Assembly: GCA_035771165.1 (NCBI GenBank)
Contig: JAWNZC010000346.1
Span: 322,501 to 386,500, forward strand
Direction of reading: 5' to 3'
Length of the DNA: 64,000 nucleotides
Source: Paragorgia papillata
Taxonomy: Eukaryota > Cnidaria > Anthozoa > Scleralcyonacea > Coralliidae
The position numbers and the translations under genes are program-made. Under the pieces are notes generated by a model. That model worked only from the letters and a program-made list of their open reading frames with translations, did no database searches and was not told where the DNA came from. This document shows positions 1 to 46,579 of the stretch, one piece after another (the first letter of the stretch is position 1; every line of letters starts with the position of its first letter).

Positions 1-3000
1 GCACTGGATGTTCCCGGCGATCCACTGCAACTCACTGTCCCGTCCACCTTCAGCGTATCGGTCACGTGCATCTTAATCACGCCTCCTCCAAGACCTCCAC
101 TCCCTCCACCGCGGCAACCAAAGTGCGCGGGCTCGTATAGGTTACCATAGGGGGTTCCGACGCGACGTTGATTAGTTCCCAATCCACCTGTACCGCCGTG
201 ACCCGCTCCGGACGAACCCTGGGAATGCTGAAAACCATTACCTTGGGAGCAACTACAAAGAAACGAGTACGATTATTAGTATTCTCGCCAAAATTTGCCA
301 GTTTGTAGGTAAACCGTAAACCAATTCAGCTTGTATGGTTTTGCCAGCCTAGTCCCGTCGTTCTAAAGCACGCGCGTATTTGATGAGACTGGTACCTAGG
401 TTTGACGTCACCGCTCAAGGTGCTCTAGAACGCCTAGCAGATTTCAGTATTTTCAAGATGGCAGCATTTTTATACACTTGACAAGGTTAAAACACAAATT
501 GTTTACGCTTGGCATACCTTCAATAGGAAAGAAATGGTACACCATATGTAACTTGTAAACAAGCACGTTTTAACAACTAAGAAATTCTAAAATAAGGGCT
601 TTAATTAACCGGCCAATAAGTCAGTAAATTTCGTCTTCGAAGTCCAGCAAAGTTTAATGAGTTCATCACCTTCAATATCTTCTGTACTTCGTAAATATAT
701 TCGTTGTAATAACATACCAATGTTAACGATTCAATTTTAAATACACACGACATTACAAAATACGACAAAATCACAACATTCTGCAAACACGAATTATCGA
801 TTTAAGACACAGCGTCATTAATTAATACCCAAATACAGGTCAAGTGGTATAAATATCAATTTAATCACATATCGAGGTCAAGCAGGTTCTTCTTGGGTTG
901 GAACAAGTAATAAAACAAATCAAAATTACTCACCTGGTTTTGTAGCCGTTGTGAAAATATAAATATATATTATTATTTTACGAGCGGGCTGGGGCCTGGT
1001 GACAAGGGCCCACTTTTTGAAAATCAGGGACCATTTTACCGAAATCTGCTAGCGTGCAAATATTAAAACAGCCAAGATAGAGAGCCTGGGACTAGGCTGT
1101 GGTTTTGCGTAAGGATGGGAAAACGAGTCATATAATATAAATATTCATATATTTCACTGACCTGTTGTCGTAGACATCTCCTCTGACAATTCCTAGATCG
1201 TCAACGCTAAAGTTTCCTGCGTTAATAATCATGTTCTTCATGTGTAACCGCCCTCCGCCCTGGATACTGCCTTCTTTCATCACCAGAGTGAGGCTAGCAT
1301 TTGTGACGTCAGAGGTTGACGTCATCTCTCCACCATCAGCGATGGTCAACGTGTGGAACTCAGACACGCCCATCTGGTTGGCTTGATAGGTGGTTCCAGT
1401 TCGCGCAACTAGGAGACGACAGCTGTGAGAAAGCGTCACGTCGTAGACATTGATCATTCCCCTGGAAAAGAATTAGTAGAAAAAAGAAAGTAGAAATAAT
1501 TAGTTTCTATCTCAGCACCACTCACTCACACACTCACACCCACATCCACGCCTACACCCACAACACACACACTCACACGCACTCACTCACTCACACGCAC
1601 ACGTTCACTCACACCCACACCTCATCCATATTCACACTTACACCCACACCCATACTCACCCACACCCAACCCACACTCACCCCACACCCACCCATACTCA
1701 CACCAACACGCATACGTTCACTCACACCCACACCTCATCCATACCACACTCACTCACACCCACACCCATACTCACCCACACTTTCACCCACACTCTCACT
1801 CATACCCACACTCACTCCACACCCACTCATACTCACACCAACACGCATACGTTCACTCACATCCACACCTCATCCATACCACACTCACTCACACCCACAC
1901 CCATACTCACCCACACTTTCACCCACACTCTCACTCATACCCACACTCACCCCACACCCACACCCACTCATACTCACACCAACACGCATACGTTCACTCA
2001 CATCCACACCTCATCCATAACACACTCACACTTACTCACACCCATACTCACCCACACTTTCACCCACTCTCTCACTCATACCCACACTCACCCCACACCC
2101 ACTTTCACCCCACACCCACAACACACTCATACTCACACCAACACGCATACGTTCACTCACACCCACACCTCATCCATAACACTCACACTTACTCACACCC
2201 ACACTCACTCACTCACTCACTAACACCGACACGCACATACACCTACACCCATCCTCACTCACACCCACACCACACTCACTCACCCCACACGCACCCACAC
2301 TCACATTCACACCGAAACACTCGCACTTACTCCTACGCTCACACTCACACCCACAACCCTCGCATTCACAACACACTCGTACCCCCTCCCACGCAAACGT
2401 CAGACGCCTACGGTACCTATTCACGATCTGAATTCCACGACACAAAAATGATTTTGGAAGATGAAGTAAACCCGACTGGTAGACATATGTATTCACTTCA
2501 TATTCTCCATCATCGGCAAACTGACCAATCACAGCCTGTTCTGGACCAACGTGTAACACACCGCTACCATCACCAACAAACTTGTGAACTCTCAAGCTTT
2601 GAGGTCTGACGAAAAACAAAATAAGAAAAGTCCCCAACATTTAATCGTCATGGAGAGAGCAAAAATCTTAATGCCTACTGGAGCACGCAATGTGATAACT
2701 TTCTCTCGCATATGCAAAAACGCGCATGCGCAAAGACGCACACCAACCCAGGAAAGCATAAACATACGTACGTCGTACGCCGTACACGCAGATTCCTTTT
2801 AACGTTCGGATGGACGGCCAACTCTCCTTTACGCAATATGTGAACTTCCTCAAATTCAAAATCAGTTTCATTCGGCAACAGCCATACTCGGCCACCATCG
2901 GCTTCCCACTTGGAGAAATTGATTTCTTGCGAAGACGACTGGCGATTATTATTGTCGATAATCAGCGAGCGATTTAACACACCATGTTGTCTGTCCTGAG

Positions 3001-6000
3001 AAATATTAGAAAATGTTCCCATCAGCAAATTATATTGAAATGTACATAATAACCATGCACAGAGTTTTTCTATTTTATACCACCTTACCTGTAAGTACAC
3101 CGTCCCTGGGCCACCATTACCATACGCTGAACCACCAAAGGCCTGTAGCTGACCAAACCACCACTCTCTGTCATGCCAGTAAATGGCCAGTCGACCACCA
3201 GATCCACCACCACCACTGTTCGTTGCTCCACCACCATTCACGGTGATTTGACCAGAACCTTCCAGTGCTCTTGTTGTTATTAAAATACTTCCGCCACTTC
3301 CTCCGCCATTGTTCACAGACGACGACGGCAAGCCATCGGCTCTTATGATACCTAGAAAACGTATCATTTGTAAAGCCAGACGAACCACATGTGTTCTGCA
3401 TGTAATCCACACGTGTTCTGCTTGTGATCCACATGTGTTTGCATTTGGTTCACATGTGCTTTGCATGCGATCCACATGTGTGAAATTGTGTTCTGTATGT
3501 AATCCACACGTGTTTTGCATGTGATCCACGTGTGTTCTGCATGAGATCCACAGGTGTTCTGCATGTGATCAACACGTGTTCTGCATGTGATCCACATGTC
3601 TTCTGCAAGTGATCCACATGTGTTCTGGATGTGGTCCACATGTGTTCTGCATATGTTCTGCATGTGATCCACGTGTGTACTGCATGTGATCCACATGCGT
3701 CTTGCATGTGATCCACAAGATGTTCTGTTCTGTATGTATTCGCATGTTACGCATATGCACCCCATGTGTTTTACATGTGTTCTGCATGTACTGCACACGT
3801 GTTCTGCATGTGATCCACATGTGTTCTGCATGTGATCTACATATGTTCTGCATGTGATCCACATGTGTTCTGCGTGAATTAAGAAACACTGTATGGCGTA
3901 TAACCGTGTACTTACCATCGACTATAAGTGACGCCTTAATATCAAGTTCCAAATGCCCTCCGCCACTGCCGCCTTTGCTACCACCACCTCCACTTCCAAA
4001 AGACTTAGGATTGAGTATGGATCCATGGGGACTTCCAGTGTTACCACCGCCCGTCGCCACTCCTCCTCGACCACCGTAACCACCGCCGGAACCAGTTGAC
4101 TGACCTGCACCGAAACCAGTACCTGTTGAAAGCAATGATAAGGAACACGTAAAACCAAGCTGATTTTTCTACTGGTAGATTCAACCATGCAAAGAGTACA
4201 GGAACGTTACACTGCCAATCAAATAGCGATCATTTACTAAAGTGTTTTCTCAAACTCATTAATAATGCATGAGCTAATTAGCCAATCAGAGAAAAATATT
4301 TGGTCATGTGCATGAATTTTGAAACCCAGTTTCCTAATTATAAATTCAACGTGAAACCATTGTCTAATCTAATACACACCAATATCACCAATTCCCTCTA
4401 TAATTGACGATTGAGAAGCTATTTCATAAACTCGTATTTTACCAGGGGTTGCAAACACTCGAGAACAACAAAAATCACTCGGCCTATTACCTCGTAATTT
4501 TCAATGTTCTCTCGTGTTTGTAAAACATTCGAAAACAATAAAAATCACTCATCACTTGCAGCCTCGTGATTTTCATTATTCTCTCATGTTTTACAAACAC
4601 TCGAGAACAATGAAAATTACTCGGTTAACGGCCTCGTGATTTTCATTGTCCTCTCCGCATGTTTGTAACCCCTGGTAAAACACTCCCACTCGTTTATGAA
4701 ATATTACATACGAAACGCTTTTTACAGTCTTTCACGCATACCTGCCGCAAAACCTTTTCCGTTTAAATCTATCAATCCTCCATACTGCACATCAAGAGAC
4801 TTGGCACGAATAAACAATCTTCTGGTTTCCAGTACTCCGCCTCCTTCTACAGTCAATTTCCCTTCCCTCCTCAATGGACCAACGTCTTGCGTAAGACGAA
4901 CATCCCAATGGTCTGTTGTGTTCCCATAGGCGCTCTCAAACAGCAGCTTGCCTGTCTTTTGTATCGTTATCCCAACGAACGTTAACGATCTTGGACTGGT
5001 TTCTTTGAAGATCAATGTTGCTCCATATCCAACCAACAAATGAGCCAAGTCACCAACGACGCGACCCCAGAAATCAACACTTGAGCTTCGGGGAATCGAT
5101 GAATATTCGAGGCTCTTCGCTTCTCGGAACTCGACTGTTGCATTCGGGAGTATAAAAGTAGCGTTGCTGTAAATGTAGGGAGCCCAAGTAACATTGACAC
5201 GGCGGTACGTTGATACAGCGGTGAGTCGGAGGGTGTTGTCAGGAGCGACGTGGATATAACCAGTGTCGTCACCTTGGATACGTTCGCTTCGTAGCTCCGT
5301 ACCTTTGCCATCGACGTAGAGATGAGCGGCACCGTAGACCTCCACAAACGTGAATTCAAACACGAAGTTGTCCTTTGAAGGCAGAAGATACGCTACAGCA
5401 CCTGTATGAACAATAAAAGAGCTAGTCGTCATCATTGTCATCGTCTTTATCGTCATTGTCATAATCGTCGTCATCTTACTCGTCACCGTCGTCAACGTCG
5501 CCGTCACCGTCTCCGTTATCATTATCATCCACCCGCCTCTAAAAGGGTCTCTGAGTGATTGAGTGAGTGAGAAAGAGAGGGAGTGAGGGAGGTACAGAGG
5601 GAGGGAGAGAGGGAGGGAGTGAGGGAGGGAGGGAGGTACAGAGGGAGGGAGGGAAGGAGGGCGTGGGGGAGGGAGGGAGGGGGGAGGGAGGGAGGGAGGG
5701 AGGAGGAAGGAAAGGAGGAAGTAAGCAAATAAATAAATAAATAAATAAATAAATAAAGGTAAAAACTTACCGGAAGATGCGAATTGTTGAAAATTGGAAG
5801 TGGTTAAGTCCTGAAAGTCGAAATAAAACAAAAAATAATTTATAACGTTTCATGTTCAGGCTACAGTACGTATATATATATATATATATACAGTTGAAGC
5901 TCTCGTGAGCGACCACCCTCGGGAACTGTAAAAAGTGGTCGCAACTAGAACTGGTCGCTTACGAGAATTCGTTCTCGTATGCGACCACCCACTGAAATGG

Positions 6001-6934
6001 CTGAAGTTGGTCGCTTACGAGAGATTGGACCAGAAAAATACTGCAGCGTTTCTATTCTGGCAACCAGCCAGAAACAGCAATACTCAATCATTGTTATGCA
6101 TTTTATAATCACATTTATTTACTGTATTAAAAGTTATCAAATTGCTTTTTAGCGCAGTGTTGACTGATTGCAAAGGGTTTTTCAAGGGTGGTCGCTTACA
6201 AGAGCTTAAAAACAAAGAAAAAGCTCAGTTTGTGAATCTGAAAGGTCGCGGTCGCTTACGGGAGTGGTCGCTTACGAGAGCTTTTGGTAACAGAGTTTAA
6301 TAGGGAATTTAAACGGGGTTTCGTGAGGGTGGTCGCAACTAGAGCTGGTCGCTTACGGGAGTGGTCGCAAGGAGAGCTTCGACTGTATTCACATTCATCT
6401 TACATCCAACAGATAAGATTTTGACATATATTACCTCAGAAACCCTGCCTCTATTGTCAATTCGTAGATTCTTATTGAGTGGTAGTTTTCCATAAAGGTA
6501 CACGACACCAGGTCCCCCGTTTTCACCCTTACCACGTGCTATCCCACCGTAAGTTGACGTGTGATCGCTATGGAATGATCCTTGTTGGTAGTTGACTGTG
6601 ATTCGTCCTCCCGCTCCCCCTCCTCCGTTACCATAACAGTCACCACCATTGGCATGAAGGTATCCGCGACCATTGAAAGTAGTACAAGAGATCCATATAG
6701 AACCACCACTTCCACCACCTGCGTTTGTTCCCTAGGGAATGATGGTTCACAATAATATATCGGTTAGTACATGTATTATTTAATATTTTTTCTCTCGATT
6801 TTGATTGTATTTGCTACATCAACTGCAAATAACTGTCGGTTATCAGAAAGTGCAAATTAGAGATCTGCAAGAATTTATTCGGCAAAGACAATGACAATGG
6901 CGATAAGGACAACAACAACAATGACACCACTACC

Positions 6935-6980
<46 letters not shown>

Positions 6981-7024
6981 GCCACACCAACACCACCACC
7001 AACAGCAACACCACCACCACCACC

Positions 7025-7056
<32 letters not shown>

Positions 7057-10000
7057 CAACACCATCACCATCACCAACACCAACACCAACGCCAATACCA
7101 ACACCAACACCCCAACACCAACACCAACACCAACACAACCAGCAACAACAGCACCAACAGCACCATCACCACCACCACCAACAACACCAACAACAACAAC
7201 AGCAACAACACCAACAACAATAACAACAAAAACAATACACATATCCACCATAAACACTTACCTTTCCTGCTTCTCCCGAAGTCTGTACTGTACCATCCAG
7301 CTGTACACTGTTAAATATCTCAAAGTAAATTTTACCACCGCCACGTCCTCCCTTGTTCCCACCGAGACCCTGACCGCCTCCACTGCCCCAAGTTCCATTG
7401 ACGTAAATAGAGCCGTGGGGAAGTCGATGACACAGCGTGCCCAAGCCTCGTCCACCTCTCCCAGCGTGACTTGCTCCTGATCCACCAGAACTCGACGGAG
7501 AACCAGCGCCAGGACCCAAGCCACCGGCGTAGCCACCCCAGTCTACGGTAACGGCACCAGACACCGTGAGATTTGTCGCGAAGATGTTCACCGAACCGGC
7601 TTCTAACCTCCCGCCGATAGAAACAGCTTTTTGCATTCGTATTGTTGAGGGAAAACTGCCTAAAGCAGGATCATCTAAGCTTTGTTTGAAGTTAAGGCTC
7701 AGTAATCCACCTGAGCTGACAGTTAATGAATCACCTACCAACGGCAGATCATGACGAAACGGTTTAAGACTTCTCACTGTGCCAGAAATGGTTGTAGTGG
7801 TGATGTTAAACGATTCGGACGGCAAAAAGTTAAATGTTCCTGTGACAACAAGCTCATGCCAGTACGAAGCCACACTTAGAAGATCAGTGGTTAGTTTACC
7901 ATTTACTGTAACGCGTTTGGCTTTGATCTGGGAACGGTCGAAGCACTTCTGTAAGACCACTACAGCATTCGTGCCAAACTGGACATGCTGTATAGTATAG
8001 TCAGTCTTCCCTTGGAGTACCACGTCACGAAATGACGTCATCTTGCCGTTCACTTGAAACAGGTCAAACGAGTAATTCCCAACCGGATAGAACTGGAAAT
8101 CGCCCGAGTCTCCGATCATCAACGAGTCTAGCCCGTCCTGAATAGATAAAGATCCGGCTTGTAAGAGACCGTTTATTGTGAGACGCCGAACTTGAATGTC
8201 GGAGAAAATCTTCTTCGTTGCACATGAGACGTCGTAGATAGCGGACATTAGTCTCAAGGAGCCTCCGTTGTTTATTGTAATTTCTTGTGTCCTGCTAGCA
8301 CTATAGCCAAAGATCGACACTTGATTCGCGATCTGTAAGTTCCCTGAAACTTGGATGGTGTCGATTAGAAACGCGTGACGAAACTCGATAGTCATGACTC
8401 CTTGGGTCCCAATGTTCAGTCGATTCCATCCTTCAGATGTAGTTGCGATTCCGGTATGAAAGTTGCCGTAAACCTCGACGGTGGACGCGCGAATAGATGA
8501 CAACCCTAAGGTTTTCTGAAAATCTAAGGTAAAATAAGCCGAACTGTTTACGATAATATTACGTGTCCGATTTACAGTAAATCCTCTGATAGACACCGGA
8601 TTTTGAATCCGTAAACTCCCCTCAACTTCTATACGGTCAACTCGAAACACACTTCTGAACTCGATATCCATATTCCCTTGCGACTTCACGTGTAAATAAT
8701 CCCATCCTTCAAAAGTAGATACCACGTCCGCTGAAAATCTACCATCGATATCAACCGCGGACGCACGGATAGAAGACACTCCTGAACTTTTCTGGGAATT
8801 CAATATTATGGAACCTTTACTCCCGATCACAATATTCTGAGTTCGATTTCTCGCAAGACCTCGAATAGAGACGTTCTTTTCGATTTGTAAACTGCCAGAG
8901 ACTTGTATGAGGTCGGTGCGTAATTCATCAACGAACTCAATGCTCATGCTTCCTAGTGGACCAACCGTGACACTATCCCATCCCTCAACAGACGAAGCAA
9001 CGCCCGGCAAAAATCTGCCACCAACATGCAGAGAAGACACACGGATGTACGAAATGCCTGATGTTTTTCGATAATTCAAAGTGAACGCTCCTTTACTGCC
9101 GACAGAAATAAACCTTGTTCGTTTTACTGCAAGACCTCTGATAGATACTGCATTTTGAATCCGTAAACCCCCCTCAACTTCAATACGGTCAACTCGAAAC
9201 ACACTTCTGAACTCGATGTCCATATTCCCTTGCGACTTCACGTGTAAATAATCCCATCCTTCAGAAGTAGATACGACGTCGGCTGAAAATCTACCATCGA
9301 TATCAACTGCGGACGCACGGATAGAAGACACTCCTGAACTTTTCTGGGAATTCAATATTATGGAACCTTTACTCCCGATCACAATATTCTGAGTTCGATT
9401 TCTCGCAAGACCTCGAATAGAGACGTTTTTCTCGATTTGTAAACTGCCAGAGACTTGTATGAGGTCGGTGCGTAATTCATCAACGAACTCGATGCTCATG
9501 CTTCCTAGTGGACCAATCGTGACATTATCCCATCCCTCAACAGACGAAGCAACGCCCGGCAAAAATCTACCACCGACATCCAGAGAAGACACACGGATGT
9601 ACGAAATACCTGAATTTTTCCGATAATTCAAAGTGAACCCTCCTTTACTGCCGACAGAAATAAACCTTGTTCGTTTTGCTGTAAGACCTCTGATAGATAC
9701 CGGATTTGCAATTTCTAAATTTCCCAAAACCTGAATACTGTCGATTCGTAATTCATCACGTATTTCAACGTTCATAGAACCACTCTCCCAGACGCGAAGG
9801 CGACTCCATCCGTTGACGGCGGAAATGACGCCTCCTAAAAACTGACCATATATGTCAACATTCTGCGCACGGATATACGAAACGCCGAACCTTATTTGCG
9901 GACCAGCGGTGTTATTGGAAATTCTAAATTTCCCGCCAGTTCGGACAGTTATCGTAGAATTAGCCGCGCCATTTTTGTCGTAGAAATCAAGCGTTCCAAC

Positions 10001-13000
10001 TACGGTGAACGTGCCGGACGTATCCAGGCTGTTAGTATACGCGGTTAGGTTAGCATTAAGAAACTGAGCCTGGCCGTTGATGGTCACGTTGGTGACTCGG
10101 AGTATACCATCAGTTAATTCAGCCTTCAAATAACCACGTTGTCCTACAAATAAGGAATTCCAGTCAGCGCTAGTCAAGGTGGTAGCATTCAAAAAGCCAT
10201 TGATAACCACATCTTTGGCAATCAAGGTCAGAGGATTAGGAGAATGAAACCTTCCGTTGTCTCCGATCTTAAATGTCCCTCCGGATACATCAAGTACTTT
10301 TGTCGCATGGTTTTGGAGTAAACTCACATCGTATCCAATGCTGTCGCTTATCAGAAAATTAGAGAACTTGAGACGAGTTGGTTCAGAGCCTGGGTGCATA
10401 ACAAATAAGCCTCCATAACGACCTATATGCATGCTCGGAGTGTTGGTTAAATCTAAGCGTCCGTAAATGTCCACACTTCTGTCATAGACTACGGTAGCTC
10501 CTGTTCTTCTGGAGAAACTCAGTACCGTAGACTTGAACATGACAAGGCACGGTGATAGATGTTTTGTGACGTTTAGAGACTGGGACGGAGAGATGAACAA
10601 CTGACCACCACCGTCGTCGTCCGAGACGGTTTCCACGGTTACCGCTGATGAGGAAGAGCTCGTGAAAAGAACACGAGAGCTGCCACTTAGGTCGACGAGG
10701 TCGATGTGGATAAAGTTCTTGTCCAAAATAAACCAACTAACTGCACCTACAAAGGGAAGACAGACTGAGATGAAAAACCAGACCATAGCACAGTGCTAAA
10801 GAGCGGTGCCTGCCCTTTTTGGCGCTAAAACGTCACGTCAAAAACATCGCTTAACTATCGACTCCGCACGAACGAACGAACGAACGAACGAACGAACGAA
10901 CGAACGAACGAACGAACGAACGAACGAACGAACGAACGAACGAACGAACGAACGAACGAACAGGCAAAAAAAAAAAAGAAAGCTGCTATCTACAAGATGT
11001 CACACCGTGTAAAGAACAACAGTCACGTCACTCGACGTCATCTTGTATGGTAATCTTTTGTTCATTACAAGCTATTACGTCATTTGTAATCTATTACAGT
11101 ACACACATAGAAAATATAATCTATTTGTGAAATATTACAAGAAGTACCTGACTTTTTAAACTGGTCATAATTGTTCCATTGATTGAGCTGTAAATGGAAA
11201 ATGGTTCATTAATAGTTGATTAGATAACTAATTATAGTCTGTGTTCATACGTATTTAACTAATGCTTTACTCTCATGGGCACATCTTTTGTATGCAGAAG
11301 CTTGTATATCAATGTACAGTATGTACTTTACTCCAAATTAATGTTGTAAAAATTCATTGTTGTCTGAATTATTCAATATAGTACTTTTCAACCAATCAGG
11401 CTATTTGATTCCTCCCAGACTTCAATTTTTTGGTGGGATCAACAGTGTGTTTTATACCTTAATCCATTGCTGTCTAGGCTGTCTGAGGCCTGGGGGGGGG
11501 GATACTCTGCCAATTTTTAGGTAGGGGTGTGCCACCGTGACCTCAAAATCCTGACCTTACCCCAGACCTAAAGAGCCTATCCCAGACCTAAACTAAAAAA
11601 ATCAATACCCTATCCCAGCACTGGTGTCACATCAGCATCCATACCAAAATATGTACTCTATTCCAGACCAAAATAGACAATTTATATACCCTATCCCAGA
11701 CCCTGAAGCTCAAAAACCCTATAGGGCGACATATACCTGTATACCTTATACACAAGAGTCCCCCCACCCCCCCACCCCGGGGTCTGAGGGTTCTCCTAAT
11801 CATCTGGCATTAGATGGAGTAAATTAAATACAAGTTTATAGGGACTGTTTTTGGCCAGCTCATGGAGGAATGGGTTAAATGTTTTGATCCGCTGTCTACC
11901 ATACTTCATCTTACTAATTATTCTTGGTTTTCATCTGATGTCACAGTGGTCATATTGGTGCACAGAAACAATGAAATGGTGGTCATATTGGTGCACAGAT
12001 ACAATGAAATGGTGGTCATATTGGTGCACAGAAACAATGAAATGGTGGTCATATTGGTGCACAGAAACAATGAAATGGTGGTCATATTGGTGCACAGAAA
12101 CAATGAAATGGTGGTCATATTGGTGCTGCACAGAAACAATGAAATGGTGGTCATACTGGTGCATGGAAACAATGAAATGGTGGTCATATTGGTGCACAGA
12201 AACAATGAAATGGTGGTCATATTGGTGCACGGAAACAATGAAATGGTGGTCATATTGGTGCACGGAAACAATGAAATGGTGGTCATATTGGTGCACAGAA
12301 ACAATGAAATGGTGGTCATATTGGTGCACAGAAACAATGAAATGGTGGTCATATTGGTGCAAGGAAACAATGAAATGGTGGTCATACTGGTGCACAAAAA
12401 CAATGAAATGGTGGTCATATTGGTGCACAGAAACAATGAAATGGTGGTAATATTGGTGCACAGAAACAATGAAATGGTGGTCATATTGGTGTACCATCTT
12501 TATCCTATGGGAACTTAACTATATTCTTATTCAGACATTTCGTATTGTTTCACCACCCCAATATGGCCACCGATGATGTGCGTGAAAAAGTTACAATTTA
12601 CAGAAGCAGATAGTTTTAATTTCAACCCTTGAAGTCAAAAATAAAGTGTTAAAAACCGTAAATCAAATAAAGCAATTAGCGATATTTTTGTCGACTATCG
12701 AGAAGCGTCGTGGCCGGGGGGAGAAAGAAGAGCTCTTCCTAAATTTTGATAGTGTTGAAAAACCGTTGACTTCTTGAATAGTTTTGTCATATTTTTTGAA
12801 ATTATAAACAATAGTGACATAAACAAAACCATCAAATTTTACGTACGTGTTCTGTTTATGTCGCAAGAATCTTGTGCTCCAACTTTGTTTGTGAGAAATT
12901 TAAAATTTTATCTTGGCCACGCGACGCCCCTAACCCCCCTACCAATATCACGCGCATTTCGAACATTTACAAACAAAGTTTTATCAAAATAGCTTTATAA

Positions 13001-16000
13001 ACTAATTTAAAAACTTACTCGTAAACGATTAAAGTCATTGTGGATACGTAAAGTGTTAAATTTCTGTCCATTCTTCACATGAGTACGAAAAACTGTCCCT
13101 GCTGCTCCTGGTTCCGCGCCGGTAACTGGAAAAGAAGTCCTGGGGATGAGTTTGTAAAAATCACGTGACGCTAGCCTGCGTACAGAACGTAGCCTGGGCC
13201 AGGTAATTTCATTCTCGCGTCATCAGGGCTAAATCCCCTCATAGCCAATAAAAACGCGCGGAAATTTTAACCAATAAAAAAGCAGAAGTCTTTAGTGGTT
13301 AATTACCTGGCCCATATTCTTTGATTGGGCCAAGGTGCAGGCTACGTCGCATGCGGGACAAATACAGAAACCATGTTACTTTGTGGAAAAAAGTTTACTT
13401 TATGTTTATGAACTGACATATAACTGATATTAACTATTATTCTCCAGATCAGTCAGTATCAATAGTGCAAGACAGTCCAATTAAGTCTCACGTATTTCGC
13501 GTGAAATTCACGCGCAGTGTGAAAGATCAGCAATATGCAATACTGTAAGCTGGAAACTGCGGAATTTGTGCAACTCCGGAAGCTGTTGACATCGTAGTTG
13601 TTTAGCGTTCTACTTAACAATGCAAATACATGTAATGGCATGCAATACACATGCATGCCTATTTACTAATTAAGTGATAGACGTACCGCTAGTTGTTGGA
13701 GAGTAATGGATACAGTTTGGTCTAGAAGTTGAAGCTGTAATAAAAAAGTTAAAAAAATTGTTGTTTTTACTGACGGCAATTGGACCTGTATCTATGCAAA
13801 CTATCAGATAGACGCTGCATCATACACCAAGTGTAAAAAAGTCCCACACTTTATTACTTCCGTCGTCACAATGACAATGAGTAATGGGTAATGATTTATT
13901 TAACGCCGTAAGCACAGGATGTGGTCGCCCAATCATCCAAGCCAGGGGCTCATGTTAAAAGTGCACGACATAGACCTAACGTCGGTGTTGATTTTACGGA
14001 GGGAGGAAAATCGCAGAGCCCTGCGAAAAACCCTCGAAGCACAGGAGAGACCAACTAAACTCTACTCACATGAAATTCAAGTTCGAGAATGGGGTTATTC
14101 CCGGACGGTCACCCATCCAAGTACTAACCCCGTCTTAACTATTAGTGAAGAGGCAGCGCCCTAACAGCACACGCCACCCGTGCTCCACGTACTTAAGCTA
14201 GACGGAAAACAAGAATATAGAAATATAATTAATCATACGCTTGTGGTAAAGCTCGATTCTTAAAGCTATTTCTTTGTTCCAAGACTCGGGATAAATTCTC
14301 AAAGCCGTCGTTGACAATGGCGCCCAAAGAAAGTTTTTTACGACAGACGACACATCACTGTTTCCCGAAAACACTTTCTTTTCACCAAATTCCTGTAAAA
14401 AAATAAAATAAATATTGTGTATAAATTAGCCTGGTTGCTTATAAGAAAAAGATTAAAAAACTTTAATTCATTTTTAGTAGTAGATTATCCAAAAATGTTT
14501 CAAACCCCAGGCAGGGGTCAAACTTGCAACTTGACGCTTTAACCATTGAGCTATTGTCAGCAACCAACTGATTAGTTAATTAGTATCGGTAGCAGAACAG
14601 AAGGATAATTCCAAGATTTTTAAGTAATAGATAATGCATGAGCAGCTGATCTGTATCTGATTTACAAGCAATCTCGTTCCCAGAGCCCACGTTCCCCTTA
14701 TCCAGCGGGCGGGAAACGAAAGGCTCTGGGATAATCCATTCACGCCATTACATACAGGATTCTTGTTATCCGGAAGAAGAGTTATATAGAGTTTACTGTG
14801 TTCATCAGCCAATGAAATATTGATGTGAAACGGATTATCCCAGAGTCTCTCGTTTCCCGGGTGGGGAACGTGGGCTCTGGGAACGACTACGAGATTGATT
14901 TACAAGGCGAGCTACAAGCCAGCCGTAGTAAATCAGATACAGATCGGCTGCGAATGCTTTATTGTACTTATCAAATGCACGCATCTAAATAGCCATGTTT
15001 TCAAACTATTTTTCAAGTTGGAGTGATTTTAGCTAAGTAAATTGAGGAAAAAGTTTATGTACATCAGGACGAATCTGTATGCGATAAACCCTAGTGTCGA
15101 CCATCCTTTTAGTTAAAATTGTTATCGTAACCGGTTATGAATTAGTAAATAAGTACTCCTTCCTTTTTACTAATTATATTTTTTAATTCACCTTGTATAT
15201 TTTCCAATTTGATCCATCCAAAAATCGCAGACTGTATGTTCTAACGTAGTTACGTTCTCCTGACCTGCCAGTTCCCTGCGTGGCAATTCCTGTTATGTCC
15301 CAGCGAATGCGCATGCTCAACGTAACCTAAAGATAGATAAATGAATGAATAGATAGATGTGTAAATAAATAAATAAATAAATAAGTAAATAAATGCATGG
15401 AATAAATTAGTTAAAATGAACAATTAATATTTAATTAAAATATATAAATACAGACAAACAGACAAACAGACAAACAGACAAACAGACAAACAGACAAACA
15501 GACAGACAAACAAACAGACAAACAGACAGACAAACAGACAAACAGACAGACAAACAGACAAATAGACAGACAAACAGACAAACAGACAGACAGACAAACA
15601 GACTGACAAACAGACAGACAAACAGACAGACAAACAAACAAACAAACAAACAAACAAACAAACAAACAAACAAACAAACAGACAAACAGACAAACAGACA
15701 AACCGACAAACAGACAAACAGACAGACAAACAGACAAACAGACAGACAAACAGACAAACAGACAAACAAACAAACAGACAAACAGACATACACATACACA
15801 TACAAACATACAGACACACACACACACACACACACATGTACACAAACAAAGAAAAGTTATCCACTGATTTCAACCAATCACATACCTGCAAGTATTCGTT
15901 AGCCCTAGATGAATGTGGCATCCATGCACTCGAACCATGAAGTCTAGCATTATTGGGATAATAATAATTGCGCGAAGAACCAATTCGTTTTGTAGTTGAC

Positions 16001-19000
16001 GCAGTTAGCTTGTGGCTACCAGACTGAATACCAAATGAAACCATGTCCTCCTCTACGAAAAAATAGAAATCATTTGATAAGAGGCGAACTAATACTGAAT
16101 CAGAGCGCATGCTCACATCACTATAGCCTCTCACATGTGTTAATCGACGTTTTGTTAAAAAAACCCTTCCTGAATTAGTAAACAAGCTAGTCAATTAAAT
16201 ACGTCGACTTTAAAAGCTCAGGTGAAGCTGTTCTCAGTATTTAACTAACAAAAACATTTTCAGACATATAAAAAATAGCGTGCGAGCAGACTGTTACTCG
16301 GCATGGTACTAAAAAGCATTATAATAGTCGCCGCTAGTGTCTGCGCACACTGGCTGGTAAATAGATTGCGGCGTCTGTGTTGCAAACTTGAAAACTGACG
16401 TATAATATTTCAACGGCAACAGTTCTCATCTTTTTGCGAGTTAACCCTCAGAGTACCAGAGGTTTCCATATTGACGAGTAAAATATTGGAGTACACTCTG
16501 GTAGAGGTGTTTGATACTGAAAGTGTTAAGTTCGCCAGCTATATAAAGGTGTAAATGCAGTCATTAAGACAAGTTCATTTTAACTTATTACTGTGTAATC
16601 TGTAGTATAAACCATATTCATAAATGGCCGTGGAATTAATATTCTTTTATGTGCATATAAATTAGCCCCTCTGAACTCGTTTTCATGTGCGAAATTCAAA
16701 AGAATCTTTACTCTAAAACGAGGTTTTAAATCGTCGGCCATTTATGAATAAGGTCTATAAAGATGTTATAGTCAGTTTCAGCTTGCTTTTGAAATTCATT
16801 TGTTAAGCCTGGTTTCCATATGGCCGTAAGAGCCGGCGGCATGGCTGCGGCAAGGGACGATGGTCCAATCATAGACAGTGTTGAATTAGCCAGCAATAAA
16901 AAGCTGTATGCGATTGGACCATTGCCCCTTGCCGCAGCCATGCCGCCGACTCTTACGGCTATATGGAAACCAGGCTTAAATAAACTTTGAATTGAATTCC
17001 TTTGGTAAAATCACGAAGAAGAAGATTATTTGTTGTATAGAATATAATAATAGATACTCATGGTTAATTAAGCATGCAGAAACAAATTGCCGACTTAAAT
17101 TTGTATCTACCTCGCAACGTAGTTCGGAACATTGCAACGTAAGTTCGGAATGTTCATTTCAATTATATATACGTATCGGATTTCAAAAGCAAGCTGAAAC
17201 GGACTACCGTATAATACAGTCATTGAAGTGGCGTTGCAGACTCGCCACGATAAAAGTGATAAAATTTGTTTTGAATTTCATTCTCTGTGTACGGTAGAAA
17301 GAAGAATTCTTCCCTTACAAAAATATTGTCGTGAAACTCGAAGAAATATACTAAAATGGACACTTAATGACTTATTTCTGTCTTCCAGAGGTGAATAAAA
17401 TCGCCTGGTGTTAGGAGGTGTTTACATGAGCCCTCTTGGTATGGCTAGCCCTAGTAAGAGGGGATGGAAGTAACCTCGTGTGCTGGATTTCACCTCGCGT
17501 TGGTTTGTTTACCGACTTGTGCAACTTTCCTACGAAGTCCGAAATCATGTTTTCGCAAACAGGATCTGAATTTATAACAAACACATGAACAAACACAACT
17601 TGAAACACAACCAAAAATATTAGTCAGAAGCAAAAAAGGCAAACTTTACCGCAGTGTATACTGAGCTTCGATCTGCTAGCCCTCCTAAGAAGACCAGCCC
17701 TCTTGAGTGCGTTTACATGGGAAATTTCCGGCCCTCCTATAGGCGAGATCTCGGGTTGTCAATAGCGAGATTTGGCCTAGGAGCGGGATCTCGGTAAAAC
17801 AGGGCTAGCTGAGAGGAAATTGTTAAGAGGATTCAAAACGCGTTTTCATCGACGAAGGTTCCAAATTAATACGAAGCTCAGACAAAGATGTTGCAATCAA
17901 CAATGACAGACGTCATTCGCACTCGCAGAGCTATTGTCTAACTGTTCCAACATGTTTAAACATGCCCTCTTCATAAACATTCCAAGCATATCGAGTTGGA
18001 ATAGCCAAACTGATTTGCATGTGGAAATTGCTAATTGCTTGTCAGCACTGCCAATTAAATATTGGCTCCGGTGGTAAATAAATAGAGACGTCCTAATGTT
18101 TAGCAGTTTTGAAGTGATAAAGTGTTACGTTTCTAAAATATTGTTGCAATTCTTAATTTTCGCGTCTCGCTAATTCACTAGATCAAGTTAGTTGTTGAAC
18201 GACTTCCTGCTTGGAATTTGATTGGTGTCTGATTAATTTATTTCTTATTGCCAGTCTTGGTTGTTCAAAAACGAATAACTAAATCAAATTCAAAACAAGT
18301 AAATTCCGCATAACCGCATAGATTTAAAAGCTGGCAGGAGACGTGACTGAGTTGAGGTGCTGTTAGTTCCCAACTTACAACTTCCTGGGACGATCACGCG
18401 AGTTGCAATATGTTGCGCGCGCATGATTTTGGCAATGCCAGCAGTGGCGGATAGAGTTATGAACTTCATTTGTTATTATTCTGGAAATGTACTTGAAACA
18501 GTATTATTTTGGTGATCTTTTTTTCGCTTTTCCGCACGCTGGCTTTGAGTGAAGCGCGCGAAAATGCGTGCACAACACAACACAACACCTAGTTACAACG
18601 TAAGGTTTAGAAATTTGAAAGCTGCATTAAATTGTACAAGAAACCTAAAAAATGAGAGTTTGAAAATTTTTTTTAAAATAAACGAATTAAAACGTCAAAA
18701 GCTTGCCTATATCCCGAGTAGTGCTGTTGCCAATTCAAGAACCTCGTGACATGATCGATATCGGTGAAGGTCAATTTAATTTGAAAAACACTTCACCCTT
18801 TTAAATAATCGTGCGTGATATCATACTTAGCAGCAAATCTTCTATGCATATAATAAAATAAAAGTAGCGTGCTGCGTACGCAGTGTAGAAATAACAATCG
18901 AAATATAGTAAGGTTAGATATACTGCCGAAACAGAGAACGTAGGAATCTAACGTTTCGAGCGAAGGCCCTCCGTCAGAGAGAAATATATGGCTACTCAGA

Positions 19001-22000
19001 ATAAATACTAATAAACACGATTCCTATACCAAATAACAAAATACGATTTCTTAAAAATTATAAGAATCCGCGGAAGCCCTGATAAAATTGATGCTTTAAT
19101 TTGACAAATGTTGCTCCCAAATAAATTCTTTGAAACGTTTCTTGGAGTGGTTATATAAAATGGGATAAATTATACTTAATTGTTTGGTATTTGGCTTGTT
19201 GATTCAGACTTACATATTTCGATCTCACGAAGGCCGAAGTCAACAGACCGAAAAGTTCAGCAGTTGGGTAACTAACACGATATGTCCACAAACTAAACGC
19301 GTTTTACGACCCAAATAATATATGAAATTGACTTATTAATTCTATCAGAGAAAGTAAACAAGATTAAATTATCTTTTTAAATAAATAATCGTTTAATACC
19401 CATATTTACACGATCGCAATCGAGAGGAATTGCGCATTAGTGTGTAAATGCACACTAATGCGCAATTTCGATCGAAATCTGGATCTATATTACACTTCGG
19501 TTTTCTCTTGGAGGTGTTGATATATAGAACAGCCGTTTTTGCCAAGATCCCGTTCTAAGAATTGTTTTGATTTTCAGGAGAGGAGAGCCAGCCATCCTTT
19601 GCGAGATCTCGCTGTTGACCAACCGAGATCTCACCCAGGAGGCTGGCCTTCTTAAAAGGGCTAAAAAGAGCCTCCTCGAAAGACTGGAAAATAAAATTCC
19701 CATGTAAATGCGAGGTTAAACCCAGTCCTCTTACTGCTGACATGAAGCAGATTGACAGTCCAATCGGATCGCGAGAATTTACATGAGAATCCAATCTGCT
19801 TGGAACACTATTTTCTGTGCTTCCCTCAATGTCTGCCATTTAGCACGACACGCACTAACTTCACACTCATGTGAAGTCATTTTCAACACATTCAAGTCGA
19901 TCCTCGCTTGAATCTCAAGTCAATCCACTCCACTGCGTGGATTGACTTCAGCCATTCGTTTGGATCATATCGAAAACTTTCAATCTTCTTCAAGTAAACA
20001 CAACAAGGAGAAACAACATGGGAGATTTGACTTGAACACTCAATCCACTTCATGTAAAGAGCCCTCTTACAGCCCTCTTATAGCCCTCCTAGGAGGCATG
20101 GCCCTCTCCGTATAAACAACCGGGCTTCGAAATACTGATTTCGGTTTGAGATCTATATGAACTCAAAAAAATATTTCATCAGGATATCCAAACACCTCGA
20201 AGTTGGTTAAAAAACTCAGCTATAATGCTATATCGTCTATTTTTTTCAACCCCACTTTTGTGTTTGGATATCCTGATGAAACACGATGCGGATCCTTCTG
20301 GTGTATGATATACCATTTCCATCGTAAAGATATCTACACATTTTCATTTGAATCAAGCCAATTCAGAGTTAAGATCCGCTCTTTGTTAAAAACAGGAACT
20401 TTATTAATTAACAGTGCAACTAAAAATTTTACATAATTCAAATTAACCAACGCATCCCACTGCATTTGTTTACGGCAATTTAATCGCCCTGTAAAGCTCC
20501 TCATCAAAAGAAATGAATGTTTTTTAAATCAATATCTGTAAATCGCATACAGATTCATCTTGATTTACTTTTTCCTCAATTTACAATTGCAAAGAATGCG
20601 GTATATGGCCTTAGGCCAAAAAGCGCATCTTGCTGTATTTTTTGTTAACTTGCGACGGCAACGACGGTTGAAGGCACAGTGTAAATTTGATACGGGAGTA
20701 TAAGTTAAACAATTATAAGAAAGGATTAAAGATACGTAAGTAATATTCAGTATACATAGTACATGGGACACAACCCTCTATATATCATATATATCATCTA
20801 TATTTCTCAAACTCATTAATAATTCATGAGCCGAAAACAAAGGAAATCAGTACCGAGACGGTGGTTTGGATATCGGAGGAAGAAATTACATAAATTAAGC
20901 CAACTTTCGCCTCGATTTTCTCTTAAAATACTGATCTGTTTGAGAAGCTATATCATACACTCGGAAGAATGTTTCATCAGGATTCCAAACACCTCGAAAT
21001 TTGTTAAAAAACTTCGGCTTCGCCTCGGTTTTCAACAAAAGTCTCGGTGTTTGGATATCCTGATGAAACACTCCTCCTCGTGTATGATATATTACATCTA
21101 TATATCATCCATATATCTTTTGTCTTGTTTTTGACTCATATTTTGGGCTCTCAAGATTTTTTTCATTTCAACAATACCTATTTTTTCAACTTTCAAGACA
21201 TTTTTGTGGAGGTCCCCCCTTAAACTGGTCCGCCCTGTCCTAAATCCGGCACTGATTACATAATGGTGTGGTCATTTGGCATGGAGCGCAACTGAACTTC
21301 AAATGACAATCGCAACGAAAAAGAGATTTAAAACGAAAAAGAGATTTAATAAAGTGAAAACCAGCACGCGTCTATATATACGCTCGTCATTGTCTTGTGC
21401 GTATATACAGAAGGAAGTTGATACTTCCCACGTTCCTGCTGTGAGAATACACAATAGAAATAAGACGTGTTTGAACTTGTATAAAAAAATACACTACAGA
21501 ATGTTGGGAATTGTCGCAATTCCACTAAGCTAAACTCGTATTTCATAAACTTTAAGTGCCGATACAGAGTTTTCGACCTTTGTGAAAAGAAGCGATACTT
21601 TTACGTATAAAAACACCGCTTCAACAATCCAATGTTTAACTTCTGTCATTGCAGTAAAATTGGAGTCTTCGCTTCAATTATTATAATGTTGTGTATTAAC
21701 AATAACCAGAATGATATATGGACGTCTTGGATTTATTTCCGTGTTAAATGGAATTTATCTCCGACTGTGCGCAAGGGTAAAAATTATCTATATACTTTTG
21801 GCACTAATTGAGCACTTTGGAAACGTTTCCGCTGTAGACGCGGTGAAAGATGGCAGTTATTTTAACGTCAACACGGTCAACAGAATCCTATTAAAAATAT
21901 AAACCTTCTTGGACATTGCAAAAATAAGTAATTGAATATACAATAAAACAGCAGTGATCTATTTTAAATGCAAGGACTTAATAAAATGCTTATCATTCAA

Positions 22001-23650
22001 CTTTTAAGCAAATTAAATTGTATTCAGACGTTTTCTTAACGAAAGAGATTTTAATTATTTCAAAAAGATACTCTTAATGCAACAAACTATAGAGCTAATG
22101 GGACATTTTTTACTGCGACTGCGCCGTGATTTTTTTGCCGACGTATAGAATTACTGCCATCGTTTGCAATTGTGTAAATTCCCGCCAGTAAATTCGTTTG
22201 ACGACTTTTCGTACGTCTGACCGGCTAACCGGGCTGACTCGTGTCGCGAAATTCTTTCCTCGGACGCAAAAGGAGATTTGAATTAACGTTTTAGATTTGT
22301 TTACATCTAAACTGAACCAATTCTCCTTTGTAAATTTAGTTTACGCGAGTTTTAAAACCACAGTAAGATCCTAATCAATCGCGTGATCCAAGTTAATCGA
22401 GATAAACCCGGCTTATGTAATCAGCACCTAAAAAAGAGGGTCAAATTTCTTGACGCCTCTTGATCAGAAAATCGCATCAAAATTCGAGCATGTTCGTCGA
22501 AATAAGCGGTGATTAGAAAACTTTATATCGCCAGTAAAATCCCCCGGTAGAAAGTTTATACTCAAGTAATATCATATCACGGTTCCGTCAGCAAACAAAC
22601 TGAAGTCTCGCCAAAACTCGCTAGGGTATAGGGCCTTAACTAAAATTTCTTTCAAGAATCAAGCGTTGAATAAAAAAATTTATTTTTTTTAAATTGGACG
22701 TTGAAAGAGTTTAAAGTGATATACAACGCTGTTTATTTTCCGCCGTTGGTCCGGCCAGATTTCTTAAGAGAGAGAGAGAGAGAGAGGTCCGTCTATGTAA
22801 CCTTTTATATTTTATTCTGGTTCAGACAGCAGACGATTTTTGAAAGAGGATGTCCGCCGTTTGGTATAACAGGAAATGGCAATTTAAATTACGAGAAAAT
22901 TTACATACCGGTTTTTCCACCTTGGCTGAGGAACGCTCCTTGGAAATTATCGTTCGTACAACTGACTCCAATTCTACCACCGCTGCCTCCACCGCCCAGA
23001 TTTCGTCCTAATCCTCCAACGACTTCTATCCTACCAGCTCCGGAGAGTGTCGTACAGGTGATCGCTATTCCCCCACCGCTACCACCGCCTGATTTTCGAC
23101 CACCTTGTCCGTGTTCACCGTTTACGCGAATAGCACCGTCGACGGTTGCTTGGGTAGAACGTATTGTTAAAAGTCCTCCTCCTTTGCCACCGTTGCCACC
23201 TTTGCTACCAGCGCTATTGACGTTCAAGGTCGAGCCGTACGGAACGGCCTGATCGACTTCGAGGTTCTTCCCACTTTCAGCTCCGCCGCGACCTCCATGA
23301 CTGCCGCCAGAACTCCCTGGTCCTGCCCCAGAGTTGGCCTCCTGGTTGTAGCCCATAGCGAGGACAACCGACGGTCGCAAGGTTAGATCGCCAGAGATTT
23401 CAAACGAATGGCTACTCGCCGACGATGTTGTCTCGAGGAGAACATCGCTCTTGATATCCAGAGAAGTGAAACGGTGTACACCAGGCGAGAAGCGACAAGG
23501 CGAAGTTATCGCTGTCGTACTGGGCGAAGATGGACATGGAGGTAGGTTGGCCTTCGTATGGGCGATACCACTAAGTATTACAAATACAAGGAAACACTCC
23601 TTTCTTGACACGATTCTATAGCTTACCATTTTGGCGTGTCGAAATACCAT
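1..23650 (-). CDS. Giant secreted glycine-rich modular protein with F5/8 type C domain (3' end outside window)
   Basis: Seventeen exons join in one frame, minus strand: 23650-22909, 16052-15886, 15326-15192, 14392-14239, 13734-13687, 13125-13019, 11187-11148, 10746-7262, 6731-6435, 5810-5771, 5401-4742, 4122-3916, 3351-3089, 2995-2772, 2605-2417, 1461-1162, 252-1 (continues). All junctions are GT-AG with matching phases; the 2772 donor is the least certain. About 2,436 residues are seen. Order: signal peptide (hydrophobic core CFLVFVILSGIA); glycine-rich module A split by a discoidin domain (residues 248-415); module B with six 92-residue repeats (465-1626) and a glycine-rich tail; module C (1726-2115); module D (2116 on). 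Recurring motifs are GAVxxLLP, GSGGGSGG, GGGGSGGRI, GGPGTVYL and LRIDN. No membrane segment is seen. The sequence suggests an extracellular beta-solenoid matrix protein; I do not recognise a named family. The start could instead be the Met at 23629. Whether the 23.6 kb is one transcript needs RNA evidence, but the frames argue for it. Confidence 0.85.
253..1161. other. Intron of giant gene between exons 16 and 17
   Basis: AT-rich intron with consensus ends. No coding sequence or clear repeat was seen in it; the small open frame at 601-786 has no recognisable features. Confidence 0.5.
1516..2380. repeat. CA-rich minisatellite (CACACTCACACCCACA type)
   Basis: The stretch is built from CACTCA, CACCCA and CATACG words with a higher-order period of roughly 130 bp, seen from the recurring ACACGCATACGTTCACTCAC blocks. 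It fills most of the giant-gene intron between 1462 and 2416. Confidence 0.85.
3386..3876. repeat. 22-bp minisatellite (GATCCACATGTGTTCTGCATGT type)
   Basis: Over 20 degenerate copies of a unit with GATCCACATG, TGTTCTGCATGT or CACGTG. It fills the intron between the exons ending at 3916 and starting at 3351. Each copy carries CACATG or CACGTG, an E-box form. Confidence 0.88.
4240..4700. repeat. Foldback repeat with reiterated CACTCGAGAACAA / GCCTCGTGATTTTC blocks
   Basis: Ends CATAAACTCG and CGTTTATGA with TTACCAGGGGTTGCAAACAC and its inverse at 4660-4680 bracket four inner blocks in alternating orientation. It lies in the giant-gene intron between 4123 and 4741. A flank at 4250 resembles the ACTCATTAATAATTCATGAG family. 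Confidence 0.5.
5425..5757. repeat. Compound microsatellite: GTCATC, GGAGGGAG and AAAT blocks
   Basis: Three adjacent simple repeats: 5425-5530 (ATC/GTC), 5556-5720 (GAGGGAGG) and 5727-5757 (AAAT). They occupy the giant-gene intron between the exons at 5401 and 5771. Confidence 0.9.
5889..6385. mobile_element. pogo/Tc1-like MITE with TA duplication
   Basis: Terminal inverted repeats CAGTTGAAGCTCTCGTGAGC and its counterpart ending GAGAGCTTCGACTG are flanked by TA on both sides, as for the Tc1/mariner/pogo superfamily. The interior holds about seven copies of GGTCGCTTACGAGA-like words in both orientations. It is 497 bp, non-coding, in an intron of the giant gene. Confidence 0.75.
6910..7235. 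repeat. CAA/CAC trinucleotide microsatellite
   Basis: About 320 bp of CAA, CAC and ACC triplets inside the giant-gene intron 6732-7261. It creates long low-complexity open frames on both strands that are not genes. Confidence 0.92.
7262..10746 (-). CDS. 3.5-kb exon with six 92-residue solenoid-like repeats
   Basis: The exon encodes 1,161 residues and starts at acceptor tttgtag|GTGCAG, phase 1. After a module head (GAVSWFILDKNF) there are six consecutive repeats of exactly 92 residues (about 9886-8231). Each has SxIRxSxxDVxGxF, EGWDxLxV, GxMxIEF, QVxGxLQI, VSIRGL and RTxxIxVxSxG. Alternating hydrophobic short strands and frequent glycine turns suggest a right-handed beta-solenoid (inference). 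NxT/S sequons are common. The end of the exon turns glycine-rich (AGGLGPGAG, GGRGGGKIYFEIF, VQLDGTVQTSGEAGK) and its donor is gtaagt, phase 0. The Met at 10786 is inside the upstream intron and is not a start. Confidence 0.85.
8507..9058 (-). repeat. 552-bp coding tandem duplication, copy 2 (solenoid repeats 4 and 5)
   Basis: Second copy of the duplicated pair of 92-residue units. The last part of repeat 5 differs more from repeat 3 and grades into repeat 6, so the duplication boundary probably lies within repeat 5. Confidence 0.8.
9059..9610 (-). repeat. 552-bp coding tandem duplication, copy 1 (solenoid repeats 2 and 3)
   Basis: This 552-bp block, two 92-residue units, is followed by a nearly identical block at 8507-9058. 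Differences are few and scattered. The very high DNA identity next to the more diverged repeats 1 and 6 shows a recent in-frame duplication or gene conversion. Confidence 0.85.
10868..10962. repeat. (GAAC)n microsatellite
   Basis: About 23 perfect tetranucleotide copies, in the intron just upstream of the 3.5-kb exon. Confidence 0.95.
11948..12493. repeat. 33-bp minisatellite, about 16 copies
   Basis: Unit begins CATATTGGTGCACAGAAACA and ends ATGGTGGT, with few substitutions and one 3-bp insertion. Because 33 is a multiple of three, several frames on both strands stay open; these are artefacts. It lies in the giant-gene intron between 11188 and 13018. Confidence 0.93.
13190..13335. repeat. 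Dispersed repeat, GGGCCAGGTAA family, copy 1
   Basis: It shares CATCAGGGCTAAATCCCC, ATAGCCAATAAAAACG and the ends GGGCCAGGTAA / TTACCTGGCCC with 47998-48170, so it is a short inverted-end repeat family. Confidence 0.6.
13914..14186 (-). repeat. 5S-rRNA-derived SINE (SINE3-like), copy 1
   Basis: In minus orientation it reads GCACGGGTGGCGTGTGCTGT, TTAAGAC-GGGGTTAGTACT, TTGGATGGGTGACCG, then CTCACATGAG-like and CTCTCCTGTGCTTCGAGGGT. GTTAGTACTTGGATGGGTGACC is the 5S rRNA internal control region (box C). The copy is truncated. Confidence 0.7.
14239..16052 (-). CDS. F5/8 type C (discoidin) domain exons of the giant gene
   Basis: Three exons (16052-15886, 15326-15192, 14392-14239) encode about 150 residues in the canonical discoidin order: start FGIQSGSHKLTAS, then ARLHGSSAWMP, then IRWDITGIATQGTG with YVRTYSLRFLDGSNW, and end FSGNSDVSS, ALRIYPESWN and IALRIELY. 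A 48-nt exon at 13734-13687 then links back into the glycine-rich module. Discoidin domains usually bind carbohydrate, lipid or matrix protein, so this part probably tethers the molecule. The intron between the first two exons holds a long ACAG/ACAA microsatellite, and that between the second and third holds a foldback element. Confidence 0.88.
14636..14960. mobile_element. Nested foldback repeats in a discoidin-domain intron
   Basis: Outer arms GATCTGTATCTGATTTAC (14650s) and GTAAATCAGATACAGATC (14930s) enclose inner arms GTTCCCAGAGCCCACGTTCC and GGAACGTGGGCTCTGGGAAC. The outer arm family recurs at 34262-34400. Confidence 0.7.
15451..15838. repeat. (ACAG/ACAA)n microsatellite ending in (AC)n
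   Basis: Nearly 340 bp of mixed ACAG and ACAA tetranucleotides followed by ACAT and AC runs. It starts 48 bp past the donor of the first discoidin exon. Long Ser-Val-Cys-Leu open frames on the minus strand are artefacts. Confidence 0.95.
16807..16975. mobile_element. Foldback MITE with TTAA duplication
   Basis: 169 bp with arms GCCTGGTTTCCATATGGCCG and its inverse, and TTAA on both sides (16803-16806, 16976-16979). The inner arms CGGCGGCATGGCTGCGGCAA also pair. TTAA target sites are typical of piggyBac-type elements. Confidence 0.75.
18868..18993 (-). repeat. Dispersed repeat with hammerhead-like motif, copy 1
   Basis: It contains TACTGCCGAAACAGAGAACG and AACGTTTCGAGCGAAGGCCC; on the minus strand the latter ends CGAAACGTT after a CTGACGGAGGG-like motif. 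Other copies lie at 31487-31613, 42106-42222, 44832-45133 and 54628-54819. Confidence 0.75.
20806..21110 (+). mobile_element. ACTCATTAATAATTCATGAG foldback family, copy at 20.8 kb
   Basis: Starts CTCAAACTCATTAATAATTC and runs into arms CATCAGGAT-CCAAACACCTCG and CGGTGTTTGGATATCCTGAT. Related copies: 20165-20290 (inner arms only), 30812-31354 and 42656-42830. Confidence 0.7.
22216..22430 (-). mobile_element. GTTTACATGAGCCGG MITE family, truncated copy
   Basis: It shares GACTCGTGTC-CGAAATTCTT, TTTACATCTAAACT, AGTTTACGCGAGTTT and GATCCTAATCAATC with 44163-44362 and 63771-64000, but lacks one end. Confidence 0.7.
22909..23650 (-). CDS. First exon of the giant gene: signal peptide and glycine-rich module A
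   Basis: The exon encodes about 247 residues. Two in-frame Met codons (23650, 23629) precede a basic stretch and a hydrophobic core, giving a signal peptide probably cut near AHTKA. The rest is a glycine-rich unit with HGGRGG, YGSTLNVNSAGSKGGNGG, VDGAIRVNGE and GGGGSGGRIGVSC, the same order of motifs seen in the later modules. The donor at 22909/22908 (ACCG|gtatgt) leaves phase 1, matching the phase-1 acceptor of the discoidin exon at 16052. The antisense strand here is also open (22701-23252) but only mirrors the glycine-rich codons. Confidence 0.8.

Positions 23651-46547: not shown

Positions 46548-46579
<32 letters not shown>

Follow-up and report, generated by a model that had tools for sequence, protein, structure and literature searches.

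We asked whether the glycine-rich repeats at the left end of a 64,000-nucleotide stretch of the Paragorgia papillata genome (the window; C346:322501-386500, with negative coordinates lying to its left) belong to one giant extracellular protein, and whether such a protein has a named family. Since the last block crosses the left window edge, neighbouring DNA was added: 5,000 N lie directly at the edge, and more exons follow on contig C346 down to about position 214,000. Our reading, which we consider reasonably probable, is that one giant gene, covering ~130 kb of the contig (~346,150 to ~214,000), gives rise to a single-pass membrane protein (type I, ~19,000-20,000 residues), built as a solenoid rod and acting as an adhesive tether. 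By length estimate, the window carries about a tenth of it.

In the window, a cyclic module profile of 395 columns, aligned by spliced Viterbi, recovered 11 ordered exons on the minus strand, from 23650 to 3, with 2,179 residues (Table 1). The path scored 1133.8 bits, against 77.6 bits on the opposite strand, 102.7 bits for a minus-strand control of the same length starting at 24100, and 33.2 bits for a mononucleotide shuffle. The initial annotation had joined 17 exons into at least 2,436 residues; the profile path supports 11, and about 2,240 residues are supported in the window. The block order that it described (GAVxxLLP, VDG, GGGSGG, GGGGSGGRI, GGPGTVYL, LRIDN) does recur, with the glycine-rich and short-strand blocks in minus-strand stop-to-stop frames. 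Its four modules correspond to a partial module at the N-terminus, two complete modules and a fourth that the window edge truncates, and they are only the front of a longer series. GT-AG intron ends are imposed by the method. By eye, a pyrimidine tract is present at 9 of the 10 acceptors (the exception being the one at 2588), whereas only about half the donors come close to the consensus; exons 2, 4, 8 and 9 have weak or unclear ones. Across the first junction, the spliced product reads in frame from GKT into VTGAEPGAAGTVF.

Table 1. Features of the window and the neighbouring DNA, in window coordinates unless another reference is given. Three exon limits were adjusted by inspection: exon 1 to the ATG at 23650, the exon 5 acceptor before 5401 and the exon 4 end near 6430.
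Feature	Position	Profile path	Strand	Evidence
Exon 1: start codon, signal-peptide-like N-terminus FLVFVILSGIAHTKA, partial module (columns 182-371)	22909..23650	23470-22909	minus	open frame; profile exon, donor gtatgt; signal peptide judged by eye only
Exon 2: finishes first module (columns 372 to 10, GTVF...LRIHN)	13015..13125	13125-13015	minus	profile path
Exon 3 (1,162 aa): module 2 head enlarged by 92-residue repeats, then glycine-rich half begins	7262..10746	10746-7262	minus	open frame
Exon 4: module 2 glycine-rich tail to LRIDN, 3' end approximate	6430..6731	6731-6393	minus	tail HMM E 4.1e-27; profile path
Exon 5: module 3 head and middle (GAVAYLLP...)	4742..5401	5372-4742	minus	profile path; acceptor ATACAG before 5401
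Exon 6: module 3, first glycine-rich block	3916..4122	4122-3916	minus	profile path
Exon 7: module 3 blocks GGGSGG, GGGGSGGRL, GGPGTVYL	3089..3351	3351-3089	minus	tail HMM E 1.5e-26; profile path
Exon 8: LIIDN and start of module 4 head (GGRVWLLP)	2779..2995	2995-2779	minus	profile path; weak donor
Exon 9: module 4 head (GDGSGVLHV)	2417..2588	2588-2417	minus	profile path; weak acceptor and donor
Exon 10: module 4 middle	1162..1461	1461-1162	minus	profile path
Exon 11: module 4 glycine-rich start; gene continues left of window	3..252	252-3	minus	profile path
Two partial F5/8 type C matches	15186-16194		minus	Pfam below cut-off; plausible splice sites
F5/8-C-like stretches directly after the IDN motif of three modules	L002:411-1688, L003:2896-3153, L004:4219-5866		minus	by eye
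1,946-residue single open frame with five module tails	C346:280792-286629 (L006/L005)		minus
Single open frame joining the last module tail to EGF repeats	-65706..-63907		minus
EGF repeats	L009:4294-6093		minus	Pfam: EGF_TEN E 4.3e-46, EGF_2 E 6.4e-27
Further EGF-containing ORFs	continuing to -75316		minus	Pfam, covering the largest (L010:4684-6747)
EGF, VWD and Laminin_G_3 in one ORF	-81390..-76600		minus	Pfam, scanned in parts of 1,133 and 463 residues
ORFs continuing the EGF/VWD/Laminin_G_3 pattern	-90090..-83053 and -97021..-91553		minus
Tandem minisatellite, open in several frames	11918-12518
Near-identical ORF pair, probably interspersed repeat	27430-27744 and 45152-45460		minus
tRNA-Tyr gene	27957-28032		plus
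Coiled-coil-like ORFs, perhaps one gene	36199-47567		minus	four ORFs scanned, no Pfam family above cut-off
EGF and PAN matches, suggesting a separate lectin-like gene	59740-62477		minus	fibrinogen-like pieces nearby by eye

A discoidin domain had also been assigned to this protein, of which it is no more than a candidate part. Two consecutive half-matches to F5_F8_type_C do occur, at 16.2 bits (E 0.012) and 19.6 bits (E 0.001) against a cut-off of 28.2, covering profile positions 3-39 and 46-81 of 127, with the last third not seen. They lie inside the 9.8-kb intron that follows exon 1 and joins columns 371 and 372. Including these ORFs would break a module at that point; they may be alternative exons or a cassette, a relic or another gene. 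For the three F5/8-C-like stretches left of the window, Pfam gave nothing up to E 10.

Beyond the window edge, a profile of 14 glycine-rich tails gave 30 rows at E < 0.01, 30/30 on the minus strand, from 23650 to about -65,700; once two split pairs are merged, they amount to 28 tails, and the N run interrupts one more. Using the whole-module profile (395 columns, GT-AG introns, last column cycling to the first), the spliced path scored 10,401 bits over about 88-89 kb in 60 exons. Four of them were discarded as spurious, and the remaining 56 ordered exons hold 12,006 residues, in support of the description of the protein as giant and modular. The series comprises about 29 modules and about 12,000 residues and runs about 64 kb past the window edge. 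The path breaks off at column 306 before the N run and picks up again at a GGPGTVF block after it, so about one exon seems missing there. Modules are split by introns except in the 1,946-residue open frame, where the path places one doubtful intron of about 300 nt. A genome-wide two-module query (617,864,297 bases in 473 contigs, match counts being lower bounds) found at least 35 matches, all 35 at C346:259749-345859 on the minus strand, and no paralogue locus elsewhere at the sensitivity of this query. Bacterial contamination was rejected as an explanation, since introns split the module series.

The last module tail shares one open frame with EGF repeats of the tenascin/teneurin type. Because the module columns also hand over past the window edge, the single-gene reading is stronger than first stated, and the anatomy is well supported up to these repeats. 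Further ORFs combine EGF with VWD and Laminin_G_3; over the parts scanned, Pfam found six VWD and five Laminin_G_3 stretches. Across 11 ORFs there are 41 EGF-like regular-expression matches, and nine CPGG motifs suggest about nine EGF-VWD-Laminin_G_3 units. The last ORF of this pattern holds a 21-residue stretch with a mean hydropathy of 3.47, and a few residues on, CKRRKKKRR. About 10 kb past this transmembrane exon, an ORF ends in a 317-residue stretch with YDEI, YETV, YDMV, YDTV and YDEV –five YxxV/I motifs in a putative cytoplasmic exon– together with PPKPKR and PPLPNR; Pfam gave nothing for this tail. All of these exons lie on the same strand as the modules, and we infer that they are spliced together. 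What ties them together is no more than a common strand, their order and the sharing of exons, and the summed total of about 19,000-20,000 residues is an estimate. The signal-like N-terminus and the C-terminal transmembrane stretch, judged by eye and by hydropathy only, suggest a type I topology, and a membrane anchor is likely. As the initial annotation had supposed, the protein is probably extracellular.

Alternatively, modules and EGF repeats could form a secreted structural matrix protein, the VWD-LamG-transmembrane exons being part of another gene or of an alternative isoform. Chains of solenoid and EGF parts are frequent in secreted matrix. However, EGF, VWD and LamG occur together in one ORF, a single strand is kept throughout, and we noticed, by eye, no new start with a signal peptide between the modules and the transmembrane exon. 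We therefore think this explanation rather unlikely. Less probable still is that the locus holds a tandemly duplicated family of separate genes lying side by side, as about 29 similar tandem modules and a series broken once by 5,000 N might suggest. As the profile is cyclic, the module path alone could miss a point between two modules where one gene ends and another starts; nevertheless, columns run on over exon boundaries with no fresh start, and across the N run they pass from 306 to GGPGTVF.

At the structural level, the 92-residue repeats reported in the initial annotation are real: DNA comparison found six cores of 93 nt, spaced by exactly 276 nt and sharing 61-84% identity with the reference copy, as well as four copies of 300 nt at 61-93%. 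The proposal of a beta-solenoid-like protein agrees with structure prediction, run on exon 3 and on the modules of a relative. AlphaFold2 gave a mean pLDDT of 78.1 for exon 3, with beta-strands over most of the model and residues 1068-1138 below 50, and of 86.2 for P0005, whose two modules are 75-81% identical to modules here. The models are almost all-beta. Their nearest neighbours in structure are proteins with a right-handed beta-helix, including many bacterial adhesins, and the predicted fold is of this type. AlphaFold2 tends to favour beta-solenoids for tandem repeats, and the model of the 92-residue repeats is therefore weak evidence. Foldseek found no match in the PDB at E <= 0.001 (best E 0.3 with the exon 3 model), and a PDB sequence search (query A2) gave none at E <= 0.1. 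This sets the gene apart from known right-handed beta-helix proteins, of which the bacterial adhesins EtpA, antigen 43, HxuA and pertactin are examples; identity to 8cpk_B was 12%.

For the single membrane protein, the order from N- to C-terminus would be a signal peptide, about 29 solenoid modules of ~395 residues each (one enlarged by the 92-residue repeats), teneurin-type EGF repeats, EGF-VWD-Laminin_G_3 units, a transmembrane segment and the tail with tyrosine and proline motifs. Stacked modules may form a stiff rod with a length, if they are coaxial, of very roughly 200-300 nm (estimated from ~18 coils of 0.48 nm per module), which would hold a distal adhesive or glycan-binding surface off the cell. 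EGF, VWD and LamG parts would form the membrane-proximal stalk, and SH2/SH3 proteins may be recruited by the tail. The likely role of the protein is that of a very long adhesive tether anchored in the membrane.

Relatives of this gene are already in databases. Exon 3 has four (P0001-P0004) at 46-48% identity, and the module profile search returned 114 proteins. We set 31 apart as animal-like: 24 have a stretch from column 25 or earlier, and 7 were added for wide coverage or high identity. P0006 'Tenascin-X' from Apostichopus japonicus, P0017 (hypothetical protein OS493_002937) from Desmophyllum pertusum and P0040 'serine, glycine, tyrosine and glutamine-rich protein-like' from Montipora foliosa carry head and tail of the same module, their best alignments to the gene here being 52%, 62% and 63% identical. 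Their database models have merely 293-686 residues, and P0006 and P0017 showed no Pfam domain above cut-off. Best alignments fall on path exons 44-53 for 29 of the 31 (P0027 and P0068 lie elsewhere), a placement that is biased because the search profile was built partly from the same exons. Best and second place are clearly apart in many of them, such as P0005 (992 vs 484 bits) and P0017 (481 vs 377), intermediate for the sea cucumber piece (486 vs 432), and barely apart in others, such as P0020 (239 vs 235) and P0013 (292 vs 289).

The other 83 relatives, among them Bdellovibrio, Phycisphaerales, Patescibacteria and a Nanoarchaeota MAG, lack the head: they begin at column 89 or later, and 145 of their 163 stretches at 150 or later (65 proteins carry at least two). 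Prokaryotic glycine-rich tandem-repeat proteins (P0039 from Bdellovibrio sp. SKB1291214, P0045 from a Phycisphaerales MAG) share the glycine-rich half, ~190 columns in the same block order, whereas the head half of the animal module is unmatched. When 20 animal tails and 95 segments from 61 of the 83 head-less proteins were aligned separately and compared with hhalign, they matched with Prob 99.9 and E 5.8e-38 over 190 columns. The reversed-bacterial control, which guards against composition because the bacterial set was gathered with the animal profile, gave Prob 4.5 over 11 columns. Animal heads did not match the bacterial segments (Prob 0.2); against animal tails they reached Prob 91.1 over 24 columns, a stretch that both cut pieces contain by design. 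When prokaryote genomes were scanned with P0045 and P0039, 24 and 46 pattern matches came up, none confirmed, phage records searched with exon 3 gave no match, and none of 444 candidate long relatives (5,500-17,500 residues) reached E <= 0.001. The glycine-rich domain may occur in other eukaryotes, since P0109 (EukProt) matches this half (E 2.8e-8). One head-less relative, P0074, has a G8 domain beside the repeats (E 8.9e-8), a domain known from animal fibrocystins.

Regarding named families, the view that none applies is upheld: the six translated window frames gave nothing above cut-off in Pfam, the module exons scanned reached the cut-off of no Pfam or NCBIfam model, and the relatives are unnamed or mislabelled. 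'Undescribed' is true for curated families and for the literature searched, where, among the matches listed, no title or abstract start describes such a protein, but relatives had been deposited from coral and sea cucumber genomes. The label 'Tenascin-X' and the EGF_TEN and EGF_2 matches could point to a tenascin or teneurin relative. Tenascins are defined by a C-terminal fibrinogen domain and FN3 repeats, and teneurins by a YD-repeat shell C-terminal to the EGF repeats and a type II membrane topology. The gene here shares EGF repeats of this type and differs by its large solenoid N-terminus; Pfam found no fibrinogen domain in the C-terminal exons (L010, L011, L012, L013), no FN3 in the exons scanned (part of the module exons, part of the EGF ORFs and C-terminal exons) and no YD-shell in the C-terminal exons scanned, where VWD and Laminin_G_3 occupy that place. 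As P0006 itself has no Pfam match, we find this kinship very hard to credit. Fibrocystin and PKHD1L1, defined by the G8 domain, were set low, the best G8 match in the exons scanned being 12.5 bits against a cut-off of 22.9. For AgmC (NCBIfam gliding_AgmC_N), P0039 scored 16.5 bits against a cut-off of 275, and three exons of the gene itself were scanned with no match. According to PMC4890752, the Acropora skeletal mucin4-like protein joins EGF and VWD, and 'EGF and laminin G' transmembrane proteins join EGF and laminin G. They resemble the gene here in joining EGF with VWD or laminin G and differ by their NIDO/AMOP or neurexin-like layouts; the term glycine-rich is absent from the main text of that paper.

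Finally, that chance translation of low-complexity glycine-rich sequence mimics a gene, in a region where glycine-rich frames and simple repeats abound, we regard as refuted by 1,134 bits against 33-103 in controls, by the forward hhalign match against its reversed control, and by the relatives (46-48% identity) found with exon 3, a mostly non-glycine-rich exon.

A more speculative reading, somewhat less likely than not, is that the locus reveals an unrecognised class of ~20,000-residue animal surface receptor that would predate the cnidarian-bilaterian split. Its rod would have arisen by repetition of a glycine-rich solenoid domain that bacteria also possess, owing to either ancient common descent or horizontal transfer, and that was fused to a head known only from animal-like relatives. 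The receptor may signal through the tyrosine-motif tail. If one transcript covers the gene, its product would be exceptionally large for an animal protein. Its coral and sea cucumber relatives, which in many cases have one particular module as their best match, stand under uninformative names with no Pfam model. Since bacteria have a clear counterpart of half the module, phylogeny and RNA can test directly where a large protein of animal adhesion or matrix came from.
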